Positions 3,123-23,801 of a DNA stretch of 25,160 nucleotides are shown one piece after another. Each line of letters begins with the position of its first letter. Within the stretch, counting starts at the first letter, position 1. The notes under the pieces are model-generated. The model ran no database searches. It was not told where the DNA came from and saw nothing but the letters and a program-made list of their open reading frames with translations. Source of the DNA: a virus; the IMG/VR virus record IMGVR_UViG_3300044961_000027, positions 1-25,160 of that record; one strand, given 5' to 3'. The translations under genes were made by a program, and so were the position numbers.

Positions 3123-4738
3123 GTGCTTTAACATACATACCAAATCAACCTATATTATTTAAGCGTCCAAACGAAACTGAATGTTTGACGTGTGAAGAGT
3201 ACAAGCACTATCAATTAATAGATAAATCGGATATTTCTCAGGTTCAATTTAAAGTACAACCTTGTGGTAACTCAATAAATGTTCAACAAGATTGGAATAA
3301 TTATAATTTAGGTTTTGGTTGGTCTAATTATTTTGGGGCGTTACGCAAAGTGGCAACAAATTCTTTTTCATTGGCTTTACTTTCAGGCATAATAGCCCCA
3401 AATACCAACTACTTTGTAGAAGTGTCTATAAGAGAAATTAATGGCACTTTAGATTTAAGATTTAACACGGCTCAACAATTATTAAACGGTGTAGGACTGC
3501 ATAGGTTTGTTCTAAACTCTAGCAATTCAAATCAGTTTGATTTTCAAATATTCATGCAAGGTAATAGCCAAACAGTAACTATTGACTATATAAATATTTA
3601 TTCTTTAGGTGAAAATTTTATATTTTCAATTCACGATAAAGACGGCAACTACCAAACAGAAATAAACACGTTTAACAATCCCGATGCATTTGTATTTGCA
3701 GAAGACACGATAACGATTTCAATAGATTGGAATAGCTTAAACTTACCCGATGGCTGTTATCAAATTAGATATTCAGACCCGTGCGTAAATAATTGTGGAC
3801 AAAACGGGATTGTAAATGGTGGTTTCGCTAATAATTCAGGTTGGCAATTAGTTACTTCAAACAATAGGTTGAGTATAACAAACGGTAAGTTAAAGTTTAA
3901 TAACGTTGGTGCTGATTATGCTCAAAACGCAGCTACACTATGCAATGGCATACAGTATAGAGTAACATGGGACTTGGATGTTATCAATAACACACAAGCG
4001 TTTATAAGGATTGGAACAGCGACAGGAACGATTAGAACTGCAACAGGAACATATACAGAAATTATAACAGCAAACGGTAGTAATTTTGATATAGTTGTAG
4101 AAGATGCTGGCGGTGTTAGAAGGCCTTTGGCATTTATAGATAATGTAAAAGTAGAATTGGTTGATAAGTCGGAATTAGTGCCACAATTAGTTAGTAATTG
4201 GTTTGAATATGGTGAACACGATTGCACACTAATTATTAATGCTTGTAACTCAAATGATGGTTTAGGTTTTATTTTCGGTAATAGCGGATTTACTCCACGT
4301 TTACGAATAGACGGGGCTATTGTTAACGCTCAATATGATTTAAGTAGAGATACTATTTTATCGAGCATTGGCAATAAAGATGTTTACTTTGGAAGAAGAA
4401 GAAAAAACAAAGAATTAAGAGTACCTTTAAGTCCCGAATATTACCACGACTTTTTATCGCTTTTACCTTTGTTTAACAATGTGTATATAAACAACAAAGA
4501 ATATTTTGTTGAGAGCGATGGATATGAATTAGATTATAATTCCGACTTGCCAAACTTTGCAACTGCAACGATAACAATATCAGAAAAAACACAACATATA
4601 GAAACTAACAACGCAAATGTTAAAAATGTCGGAGGCTGTCAATTGCCACCTAACTATTTATTGTTAGTACAGGGTAATCAGCAAACAGATTTTGTAAATG
4701 ACATGGAACAATACGAACCAATTTTAATAAACGAATAA
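3119..4738 (+). CDS. Tail protein with carbohydrate-binding-like beta-sandwich repeats
   Basis: 539 residues, starting in an ATGA overlap with the tail-tip gene. Two stretches look like CBM or galactose-binding beta-sandwich modules. One is at roughly residues 45-165 (ending TIDYINIYSLGENF). The other, at roughly 230-350, starts NGGFANNSGWQL, includes LSITNGKLKFNN and ends FIDNVKVEL; this pattern is common in secreted and phage adsorption proteins. A Cys-rich junction (CYQIRYSDPCVNNCG) separates them and further Cys pairs lie near both ends. By position and domain type it is probably a virion protein that contacts host surface glycans or carries the fibre. No enzymatic motif was seen. Binding specificity is unknown. 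Confidence 0.6.
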   Translation: MSALTYIPNQPILFKRPNETECLTCEEYKHYQLIDKSDISQVQFKVQPCGNSINVQQDWNNYNLGFGWSNYFGALRKVATNSFSLALLSGIIAPNTNYFVEVSIREINGTLDLRFNTAQQLLNGVGLHRFVLNSSNSNQFDFQIFMQGNSQTVTIDYINIYSLGENFIFSIHDKDGNYQTEINTFNNPDAFVFAEDTITISIDWNSLNLPDGCYQIRYSDPCVNNCGQNGIVNGGFANNSGWQLVTSNNRLSITNGKLKFNNVGADYAQNAATLCNGIQYRVTWDLDVINNTQAFIRIGTATGTIRTATGTYTEIITANGSNFDIVVEDAGGVRRPLAFIDNVKVELVDKSELVPQLVSNWFEYGEHDCTLIINACNSNDGLGFIFGNSGFTPRLRIDGAIVNAQYDLSRDTILSSIGNKDVYFGRRRKNKELRVPLSPEYYHDFLSLLPLFNNVYINNKEYFVESDGYELDYNSDLPNFATATITISEKTQHIETNNANVKNVGGCQLPPNYLLLVQGNQQTDFVNDMEQYEPILINE

Positions 4739-5943: not shown

Positions 5944-5973
5944 TTTGAAAATACAAAAACATATTTATATTTG
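5944..5973 (+). promoter_or_regulatory. Bacteroidota-type promoter for the 6043 gene
   Basis: TTTG at 5944-5947 (-33 element) and TATATTTG at 5966-5973 (-7 element TAnnTTTG) are separated by 18 nt. Predicted transcription would start around 5978-5980, leaving a ~60-nt leader that holds a hairpin. The same -7 sequence and spacing occur at 17669-17698, upstream of the exonuclease gene. Confidence 0.75.
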
Positions 5974-17668: not shown

Positions 17669-17698
17669 TTTGAAGTAAACATTTTTTGTTTATATTTG
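17669..17698 (+). promoter_or_regulatory. Bacteroidota-type promoter for the exonuclease unit
   Basis: TTTG at 17669-17672 and TATATTTG at 17691-17698 are separated by 18 nt. The element begins just after the DUF5675 stop. The start codon at 17718 is only 19 nt beyond the -7 element, so the leader would be very short (about 12-15 nt). Confidence 0.75.
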
Positions 17699-19337: not shown

Positions 19338-19443
19338 TATTGAAGACGTAGAAGAATTGCTGGAGGCTTTACGTGGCGCATTAATTGCGACAGGTCATTC
19401 TTATATGTTAAATTACAAGATAACACTTAAAGAAAATGAATAA
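19273..19443 (+). CDS. Small hypothetical protein (56 aa)
   Basis: A 56-residue frame starting MGTIIIENENQKVQVEQNFL, with 65 bases overlapping the end of the upstream gene in another frame and 8 bases overlapping the spanin-candidate start. The second half (DVEELLEALRGALIATGHSY) is a clear amphipathic helix. The tight overlap with the next start and the regular coding pattern support translation. No family was recognised. Confidence 0.5.
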   Translation: MGTIIIENENQKVQVEQNFLNSIEDVEELLEALRGALIATGHSYMLNYKITLKENE

Positions 19444-19843
19444 AATATTTTACATCGCAATATTTTTGCTGACTTCATGCAGTGCGGAATGGCATTTAAA
19501 ACGTGCAATAAAAAAAGGTATTGAAGTAAAAAAAGACACGATTTCTTTACATGATACTATTTTAACGAAAGAAGTTTATCATGATACAACGGTCGTAACT
19601 AAACCAAACGATACGCTCACATTTTATAAAGACCAATGGCACGTAAAGATAGTACGAATTAACGATACATTGCACGTTCAAGGCGGTTGCAAATCAGATA
19701 CGCTTTATATCGAGCGAAAAATACCGGTTGATAGAATAGTCAATAAAATAGACTATTGGAGCGGAATTATAGTTTTCCTAAAATGGCTTGTAGTATTAGC
19801 AGCAATGCTTGTTGGTGGTTGGGTAGTGTTTAAGAAATTGTAG
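19436..19843 (+). CDS. Lipoprotein with C-terminal membrane segment, candidate unimolecular spanin
   Basis: 135 residues. An N-terminal lipoprotein signal peptide (MNKIFYIAIFLLTSC) has an LTSC lipobox with Cys15 as the lipidated residue. SAEWHLKRAIKKG follows. A 90-residue periplasmic stretch of beta/polar residues leads to a single C-terminal transmembrane helix (~110-132, IIVFLKWLVVLAAMLVGGWV) and a short basic end. Lipidated N-terminus plus C-terminal inner-membrane anchor is exactly the architecture of u-spanins, which join and fuse inner and outer membranes in the last step of lysis. The gene closes the transcription unit that starts soon after the holin. No homology search was possible, so the role is inferred from topology. 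Confidence 0.6.
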   Translation: MNKIFYIAIFLLTSCSAEWHLKRAIKKGIEVKKDTISLHDTILTKEVYHDTTVVTKPNDTLTFYKDQWHVKIVRINDTLHVQGGCKSDTLYIERKIPVDRIVNKIDYWSGIIVFLKWLVVLAAMLVGGWVVFKKL

Positions 19844-19887
19844 CATAAACAATTCACTAAGCCTTATTTTCTTATTTAATGACCGAT

Positions 19888-19912
19888 AAGCCCCTCAAAT
19901 TCGAGGGGTTTT
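19888..19912 (+). terminator. Terminator after the spanin candidate
   Basis: The stem CCCCTC (19891-19896) / GAGGGG (19903-19908) extends outward with A-T and G-U pairs (from 19888) and has a 6-nt loop. It is followed by TTTT (19909-19912). It ends the late-side + strand transcription unit and could also work in reverse for the minus-strand RNA, although no T-tract follows it on that strand. Confidence 0.75.
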
Positions 19913-19998
19913 AAATTAGCAGCCGACCAAGTCGCACGTTGGTTAAGTTCGGTTACGCTATCAGTTGTACACCTGCCGAACATTCTTATGAGCTGCTA
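19889..19998 (-). ncRNA. Candidate structured small RNA (three-way junction), minus strand
   Basis: The stretch 19917-19998 folds as a closed three-way junction. P1 is TAGCAGC (19917-19923) with GCTGCTA (19992-19998). P2 is GTTCGG (19947-19952) with CCGAAC (19976-19981), with a 23-nt loop. P3 is ACCAA (19926-19930) with TTGGT (19939-19943), with an 8-nt loop. A strong minus-strand promoter sits just upstream at 20001-20032, so transcription would begin at the edge of P1. The terminator hairpin at 19888-19912 lies at the far end, giving a transcript of roughly 100-110 nt. There is no open frame of note. The stretch is GC-richer than the surrounding DNA. It is not a tRNA (no T-loop, no anticodon arm in place). 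No known RNA family was recognised. Confidence 0.5.
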
Positions 19999-20000
19999 TG

Positions 20001-20032
20001 CAAATATACGAATATTATCTTACTTTTTCAAA
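20001..20032 (-). promoter_or_regulatory. Minus-strand Bacteroidota promoter
   Basis: Read on the minus strand, TTTTG ends at 20029 (TTG = complement of 20029-20031) and TATATTTG covers 20008-20001, with a 20-nt spacer. Both elements match the consensus exactly. It points away from the early genes and toward the structured RNA at 19917-19998. Confidence 0.7.
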
Positions 20033-20111
20033 AATTTGTCAATTTGCAGGCTTACTACCTAAAATTATTCTTATTGGTTTTCAATCAGTTACGATAAAAA
20101 GTTAAAATAAA
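20033..20111. other. Spacer between divergent promoters
   Basis: 79 AT-rich bases between the minus-strand promoter and the early plus-strand promoter. I see no gene, no clear inverted-repeat operator and no direct-repeat series. AATTTGCA occurs near both ends (about 20041 and 20111), which may be chance. Confidence 0.4.
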
Positions 20112-20143
20112 TTTGCATATTTTAAAAAGTCATTGTACTTTTG
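20112..20143 (+). promoter_or_regulatory. Early promoter for the 20182 gene
   Basis: TTTG at 20112-20115 and TACTTTTG at 20136-20143 are separated by 20 nt. An A-rich leader of about 30 nt precedes the ATG at 20182. The same TTGTACTTTTG core occurs at 20926-20936. Confidence 0.75.
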
Positions 20144-20181
20144 CTTCATCAAACTAAAACAAACAACTAAAACTAATAACT

Positions 20182-20553
20182 ATGAACTTAAATGAATTAT
20201 CAAAAAAATTAGGTTATAGCTTTACAGAAAAAGCAACTATAAACGGAAGTAGATATTACACTATTAATGGAGTTAAGTTTAGAGTTTCAGACCATAATCA
20301 ACCATCTAATTATGTTATAAGAGATTACTTTGATTTGGAAAATGAAGAGCAGATATTACATATAGTTAGCCATGAGTTGTTTGGATTTAATTATAATGTA
20401 CACTCTGACGAAAACGGTTATTATAAAATTATTAACGATGGTTCCGATGTTTATTATGAAGATATTACAAGAGATGAATATGATCAATTGTTAAAAATTG
20501 TAAATGCTAAGAAAGATTTTTTTATAAAAAATAATTTTAAATACAGTTTTTAA
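20182..20553 (+). CDS. Early hypothetical protein (123 aa)
   Basis: 123 residues, the first gene of the early region, directly behind a strong promoter. The protein is acidic and Tyr-rich (INDGSDVYYEDITRDEYDQL, ~92-111). Its N-terminus, LNELSKKLGYSFTEKATING, has a helix-plus-strand look, and RYYTINGVKFRVSDH follows. There is no membrane segment and no recognised motif. Small acidic first-early proteins in phages often counter host functions, but nothing in this sequence proves that. The A-rich start region is typical for the host group. Confidence 0.6.
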   Translation: MNLNELSKKLGYSFTEKATINGSRYYTINGVKFRVSDHNQPSNYVIRDYFDLENEEQILHIVSHELFGFNYNVHSDENGYYKIINDGSDVYYEDITRDEYDQLLKIVNAKKDFFIKNNFKYSF

Positions 20554-20817: not shown

Positions 20818-20918
20818 AATTTAGGCGCAACAGTAAGGAACTTGCTATGTTAGACATGGCAGCCTTAATAATAGGAATGATGTTAGCAATTATTTTGCTG
20901 CATTATTTGACAAATTAA
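20814..20918 (+). CDS. Small single-pass membrane peptide (34 aa)
   Basis: MKFRRNSKELAMLDMAALII opens a 34-residue frame with a basic N-terminus and one hydrophobic helix (~15-32). The ATGA overlap with the upstream gene supports real translation. The -33 element of the next promoter lies in its 3' end. Function unknown; an inner-membrane topology with the N-terminus inside is expected from the charges. Confidence 0.5.
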   Translation: MKFRRNSKELAMLDMAALIIGMMLAIILLHYLTN

Positions 20919-20936
20919 AATTTATTTGTACTTTTG
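20906..20936 (+). promoter_or_regulatory. Early promoter for the 20951 gene
   Basis: TTTG at 20906-20909 and TACTTTTG at 20929-20936 are separated by 19 nt. The ATG at 20951 is 15 nt beyond the -7 element, so the leader is very short. It shares the TTGTACTTTTG core with the 20112 promoter. Confidence 0.7.
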
Positions 20937-23507: not shown

Positions 23508-23801
23508 ATGTTATACAATGACCATTTTCAGAATTTTAAGGTATATCAGATACCTAAAGCACAATTAATAATTGCAGATATTCCTTATAACTTAGGAAAT
23601 AATGCTTATGCTTCTAACCCTGCATGGTATAAGGCCGGTGATAATAAAAATGGAGAAAGCGAATTAGCGGGAAAAGAATTTTTTGATACTGAGAAAAATT
23701 TTAAACCAATGGATTTTAGATACTCAATAAAAAATGAAATATATAAAATAATATGGATTTGCAAAAACAAAACTAGAACAAATAAGCCCAACACTTTTTA
23801 A
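23508..23801 (+). pseudogene. Truncated DNA methyltransferase remnant
   Basis: The first ~70 residues look like the N-terminus of a phage adenine-type DNA methyltransferase: QIPKAQLIIADIPYNLGNNA (~14-33) holds the catalytic DIPY motif (variant of DPPY), followed by GDNKNGESELAGKEFFDTEKNF. From about residue 72 the pattern breaks into an unrelated Lys/Ile/Asn-rich tail ending TRTNKPNTF, and the frame stops. Full-length members are, to my knowledge, well over 200 residues and carry a SAM-binding motif (FxGxG) that is absent here. No remaining C-terminal part is visible before NinG, which starts one base later. It is probably a deletion remnant; a short functional DNA-binding protein is less likely. 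Confidence 0.7.

Follow-up and report, generated by a model that had tools for sequence, protein, structure and literature searches.

The minus strand of a 25,160-base virus record (the whole stretch that was analysed, hereafter the window) carries an element that we regard with high confidence as a genuine structured RNA, which folds as a compact three-way junction and recurs in four further viral contigs. Bacteroidota-type promoters are present in the window, whose credible protein genes all lie on the plus strand and none on the minus strand, as the first-pass annotation had also noted. The minus-strand locus is situated between two blocks of protein genes, in the gap (19844-20181) between the late genes, of which the last is at 19436-19843, and the early block, whose first gene starts at 20182. 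The GC content of the core is 49% as against 33% for the window, a value reached by 0.17% of 82-nt windows, and the rise over the surroundings described earlier is thus borne out. From promoter to hairpin the RNA is predicted to measure about 110 nt, and promoter, helices and homologues together lend sequence support to the promoter-driven three-way-junction RNA of some 100-110 nt that had been proposed. The features of the locus are collected in Table 1.

Table 1. Coordinates and properties of the RNA, its promoter, the adjoining hairpin and the surrounding cassette in the window
Feature	Position	Strand	Properties
Three-way-junction RNA core, 82 nt (P1, P2/P2b, P3)	19998..19917	minus	From folding and the homologues L118, L149, L150 and L151
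P1	19998-19991 with 19924-19917	minus	8 pairs, innermost U-G
P1 5' strand	19991..19998	minus	UAGCAGCU, partner GGCUGCUA; 3/8 pairs compensatory, 2 vary on one side
P1 3' strand	19917..19924	minus	GGCUGCUA
Junction J1/2	19982..19990	minus	CAUAAGAAU; AGAAU conserved (alignment)
P2	19981-19976 with 19952-19947	minus	6 pairs, GUUCGG/CCGAAC
P2 arm	19947..19981	minus	Inner P2b (CAG/CUG), apical loop GUGUACAA, conserved bulge AUAGCGUAA
P3	19943-19939 with 19930-19926	minus	5 pairs, ACCAA/UUGGU; conserved loop GUGCGA
Bacteroidota-type promoter, near-consensus	20032..20001	minus	TTTGAAAAAGTAAGATAATATTCGTATATTTG: TTTG 20032-20029, 20-nt spacer, TATATTTG 20008-20001
Neighbouring early promoter, not part of the RNA	20112..20143	plus	TTTG-N20-TACTTTTG; homologous in L002
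Hairpin CCCCUC-GAAUUU-GAGGGG	19908..19891	minus	Probable 3' boundary of the RNA
Accessory cassette (hairpin, RNA and promoter)	19850..20059		Absent from the matching L002 gap; left edge approximate

Folding recovered the same three helices that had been drawn in the first-pass annotation, with 8 (including a U-G), 6 and 5 pairs for P1, P2 and P3, respectively. The folding energy of the 84-nt core is ordinary (z -1.27, with 25 of 200 shuffles folding equally well), and the fold was therefore judged by its homologues instead. When the downstream hairpin was included the minus strand reached z -2.94, and the plus strand of the same locus folded at least as well (z -4.07).

When 2.9 million viral contigs were scanned with the unpaired or junction motifs, L118 emerged first and then L149, L150 and L151, all of them IMG/VR contigs, which a covariance model built from the window copy only recognized with cmsearch E values of 3e-20, 5e-13, 8e-12 and 5e-13, respectively. 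This gives five copies with four distinct sequences in three lineages, L149-L151 being close relatives of one another. In each copy the 19 pairs of the three helices are complete, and six of them show double-sided compensatory changes, three in P1, one in P2 (G-C to A-U in the L149 group) and two in P3, so that such changes, named beforehand as what would speak for the structure, were found in all three helices. As a control, the partners were slid by 1-3 columns, upon which pairing dropped to 16-43% and double changes to zero. The alignment was fitted to the window structure, a bias in favour of that structure; RNAalifold nevertheless finds P1-P3 unprompted, and L149 on its own folds into the same helices (z -4.1). 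In the window copy, furthermore, one P3 pair is missing on both sides (columns 66 and 75), a paired deletion, as would be natural for an RNA, made up of two single-base losses which are the only indels within P3 and which would shift a reading frame. Identical in all copies are the unpaired AGAAU, AUAGC[G/U]UAA and UUA and the P3 loop GUGCGA. The covarying helices and fixed loops in unrelated phages argue that the shape is under selection.

Two other accounts of this conservation were weighed. A short protein gene could begin at the ATG at 19983 on the minus strand, within J1/2-P2, and this frame is indeed open in all copies, its length being 35 codons for the window and 25-66 codons for the relatives. 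Between L118 and L149, however, it shows eight non-synonymous and three synonymous codon changes, its substitutions fit base pairing, and the paired deletion in P3 throws the window copy out of frame after codon 15 and yet removes both partners of a pair; a conserved peptide from this element is thus unlikely, and a protein gene as the explanation very much so. The element could also act as single-stranded DNA, for example as a recombination, nicking or replication site, as inverted repeats fold as DNA too and relatives differ in whether they have the cassette. Against this, the four wobble pairs seen in P1-P3 across the copies are all of the G-U type on the minus strand (A-C on the other), and it is on this same strand that a promoter stands 2 nt before P1; we consider the DNA explanation to have hardly any likelihood. 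Taken together, the wobble pairs and the promoter assign the RNA to the minus strand in the window.

The promoter of the window copy lies where the first-pass annotation had put it, although it is near-consensus rather than exact when compared with the sigma-ABfr consensus, TAnnTTTG at -7 and TTTG near -33 (PMC7366714). Minus-strand matches to TTTG-N17-21-TANNTTTG number three in the window, where about 1.1-1.8 are expected by chance, and the pattern match by itself is not significant; the remaining two fall within protein genes, leaving that of the RNA as the sole match outside genes. More near-consensus promoters of this type are found on the plus strand in intergenic positions (5944-5973, 17669-17698 and 20906-20936). 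By sequence, the window copy has its own promoter at the 5' end of the RNA, ending 2 nt before P1, and it is the only one among the five copies with a promoter directly at P1. The nearest -7 box upstream of the RNA is ∼100 nt away in L118 and ∼190 nt away in L149 and L150. With their boxes at such a distance, these other copies may be cut from longer transcripts or be cis elements, and the RNA 5' ends in L118 and L149-L151 may differ from that of the window copy.

At the far end, where a terminator hairpin had been described, the hairpin itself is present. The T-run that accompanies it is on the plus side (TTTTAAATT), the minus side has just CTTATC after it, and a terminator scan listed the hairpin on neither strand. 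In the RNA direction it would be a weak or bidirectional terminator at best; in the opposite direction, given this T-run, it is also the probable end of late plus-strand transcription.

The RNA is not a fixed part of this phage type. The closest relative, L002/L023, has 73% identity in the exonuclease, and L002 shares the late gene with the window and has a homologue of its early promoter region (score 74, compared with 45 for the best of 300 shuffles). The distance from the late stop codon to this promoter region is 216 nt in the window and 16 nt in L002, which lacks a block of ∼200 nt comprising hairpin, RNA and promoter. Gain in the window lineage and loss in L002 are both possible; in either case its absence from L002 marks the RNA as accessory, moron-like and dispensable for this phage type. 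Relatives retrieved through the adjacent exonuclease and the recombination exonuclease (L023-L103) were likewise without the element. The late gene bordering the gap, situated where the lysis region ends, encodes a 135-aa protein that begins like a lipoprotein (LLTSCSAEW) and has a hydrophobic segment in its C-terminal part; it had no Pfam or PHROG match and could be a candidate spanin-type lysis protein.

Comparison of the retrieved records places the carriers in three lineages. Apart from the RNA, the window has nothing in common with the L118 record at the translated level and nothing in common with the L149 record, and with L150/L151 its only common features are a fragment of a methylase and a short stretch of holin, two short, unlinked matches; a helicase-methylase block is common to the L118 and L149 records. 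The window contains a 97-aa frame (23508-23801) that corresponds at first to the beginning of a phage DNA methyltransferase (81% over 72 aa, L150) and then skips to a later part, ∼500 bases of L150 and L103 being missing, so that the gene looks internally deleted. The terminases of the carriers are near those of phages of Flavobacterium, Cellulophaga, Olleya and Nonlabens, which indicates that the other carriers, too, are probably Bacteroidota phages.

No neighbouring gene is common to all carriers. The position and orientation of the RNA in L118 and L149-L151 differ from those in the window: in the L149 lineage and in L118 it lies upstream of a co-directional gene, the downstream genes being different, and in L149-L151 it is found just downstream of the large terminase gene, from which it is >4 kb distant in L118. 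A conserved stretch, GGCAGCAAACTCAATTTAGTG, follows the RNA at 2416-2474 of L149 and at the same place in L150 and L151, and the subsequent genes differ among the three. In L118, a structured stretch at 3318-3421, between the -7 box and the three-way junction, consists of an outer stem, the hairpin AAGGUUUUUAACCUU and a D-arm-like GCAGACUGGUAGAGC, for which ARAGORN and Rfam returned nothing. Elsewhere in L118 (1378-1492), a second TATATTTG box leads after 2 nt into a closed stem of 19 bp that contains inner hairpins (z -4.8), the same layout of promoter and stem with another sequence, and this is possibly another phage small RNA.

That the RNA is undescribed, as had been suggested, is consistent with Rfam 15, in which no family matched the window at gathering thresholds. 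Relaxing the search to E 10 for the window, L118 and L151 copies produced no credible match, the best weak one being isrJ (E 0.2; 20 bits, cut-off 37), which rests largely on the terminal hairpin. A tRNA or tmRNA was ruled out, as ARAGORN found no cloverleaf. The element was not found in ∼395 sampled Bacteroidota genomes with a single-sequence covariance model (R1) and an exact motif pattern, and further covariance searches of Bacteroidota draws and of one class of 98 were empty, with only 10-43 candidates scored per genome; as the draws from the phylum consist largely of the same genomes, more weight is due to the negatives from R1 and the pattern. Likewise, blastn did not find it in annotated phages, four isolate phages picked by terminase similarity to the other carriers gave no match, and neither did plasmids searched with the L118 copy. 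The negatives in genomes and annotated phages suggest an RNA that is rare or restricted to phages.

Several other candidates were discarded. The pattern TAGCAGCTCATAAGRA occurred in 20 contigs that, by blastn and by eye, had nothing beyond the pattern in common; two matches to CCAACGTGCGACTTGG were rejected likewise as pattern only; TCGGCAGG-N-GCGTAACCGA returned only L118 and unrelated loci; and the five matches of a genome-contig scan with GTGTACAACTGATAGCG were all due to chance. A blastn match in a Klebsiella phage (83% over 41 nt, E 0.6) was dismissed, there being no R2 match.

As to function, neither the control of an adjacent gene nor base pairing with one particular phage mRNA seems to be the task of the RNA. 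In the window its strand has no gene downstream, and it is therefore not a leader in this phage, where it should act in trans. The fixed loops and junction, the drifting helices, the accessory nature and the recurrence in unrelated phages of probably one host phylum fit a conserved host target (a protein or RNA-protein complex) better than the regulation of a particular phage gene. Our preferred reading, held tentatively and with slightly less than even confidence, is that of a stand-alone, accessory 'moron' RNA which would act in trans mainly on a host protein or RNP, as a decoy or inhibitor; action against a host target had been one of the options offered in the first-pass annotation. In such a scheme the host polymerase would make the RNA from its promoter, the apical loop of P2 (UGUAC/UGCAC) might kiss the P3 loop (GUGCG) so as to lay P2 and P3 side by side, and the arms so arranged might display the unpaired AGAAU, AUAGC[GU]UAA and GUGCGA as one surface. 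The RNA could then bind a host protein or RNA-protein machine, a host target for which we argue by exclusion, and the outcome would be counter-defence or host takeover. Every copy allows five L2-L3 pairs, among which C-G and U-G are exchanged, and 4% of shuffled loops reach five; the kissing contact is thus only modestly better than chance and is taken as a lead, the palindromic loop alternatively serving dimerisation.

Three other functions were considered alongside this one. A base-pairing regulator, whose loops would pair with phage or host mRNAs and time late and early expression, for which the c4/CI immunity RNAs of phages P1 and P4 are the model, is a rather unlikely but serious alternative, in that the locus is flanked by the late block and the early one, has a divergent promoter of its own and contains conserved unpaired segments. 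When J1/2, L2 and L3 were compared with the start regions of the phage's own genes, however, no pairing exceeded the chance best, barring a marginal value for J1/2. The differing position and orientation of the RNA in the other lineages also count against it, as does the relative with the same early promoter region and no RNA, and on the same grounds the role in a late-early switch put forward in the first-pass annotation is unsupported. The placement upstream of a co-directional gene in L118 and the L149 lineage, together with the loop-loop complementarity in all copies, would suit a cis-acting leader or riboswitch that controls a downstream gene through L2-L3 kissing in an arrangement resembling that of purine riboswitches. 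We find this improbable, as the window encodes nothing downstream on the RNA strand and has a hairpin after P1, the downstream genes vary among the carriers, and no riboswitch family of Rfam matches. The resemblance to the purine riboswitch extends to the P1-P2-P3 layout and a possible loop-loop contact; the core letters are different. Finally, a multimeric RNA with a structural or packaging role in the virion, comparable to phi29 pRNA, is called to mind by the three-way junction and its conserved palindromic loop (UGUACA; GUGCAC), which could pair between molecules, and by the location next to the large terminase gene in L149-L151. The chances of this appear slim, since an essential packaging component would not be expected to be missing from the closest relative and from the four isolate phages chosen by terminase, and since Rfam gave no match and the L118 copy is remote from the terminase. 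Both RNAs are phage-encoded three-way junctions with loops that in principle are pairable between molecules; the new RNA differs in being accessory, in its position and in the host phylum.

Among known systems, the accessory, trans-acting RNA that we favour can be set beside GibS, a host regulator and intergenic small RNA of ∼145 nt in Bacteroidota with its own sigma-ABfr promoter (PMC7366714). The two are of one size class, are both intergenic and have the same kind of promoter; GibS combines hairpins and a terminator with a 5' region that is single-stranded, in contrast to the closed three-way junction of the phage RNA, which so far is confined to phage contigs. Small RNAs encoded by phages have been reviewed (PMC12197685), and these, including IsrK of Gifsy-1 (PMC4825925), resemble it in being encoded between phage genes and probably in acting in trans, and show no match to it in sequence or structure. 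Phage morons, too, are self-contained transcription units present in one phage and missing from the same gap of a relative, with the difference that their product is a protein and that of the present cassette an RNA.

To our knowledge, phages have yielded few structured small RNAs so far, and the literature searched describes none from Bacteroidota phages. On the sequence evidence, the RNA is real and so far unnamed. It is conceivable, though we would rather doubt it, that it represents the first known phage RNA family which blocks a host defence or machine as a folded RNA and is passed among unrelated Bacteroidota phages. A covariance model and a natural pair of phages with and without the RNA (the window and L002) are now to hand, and a compact accessory RNA that recurs in unrelated phages offers a concrete and testable subject for work on how phages and hosts interact through RNA in one of the major bacterial phyla.
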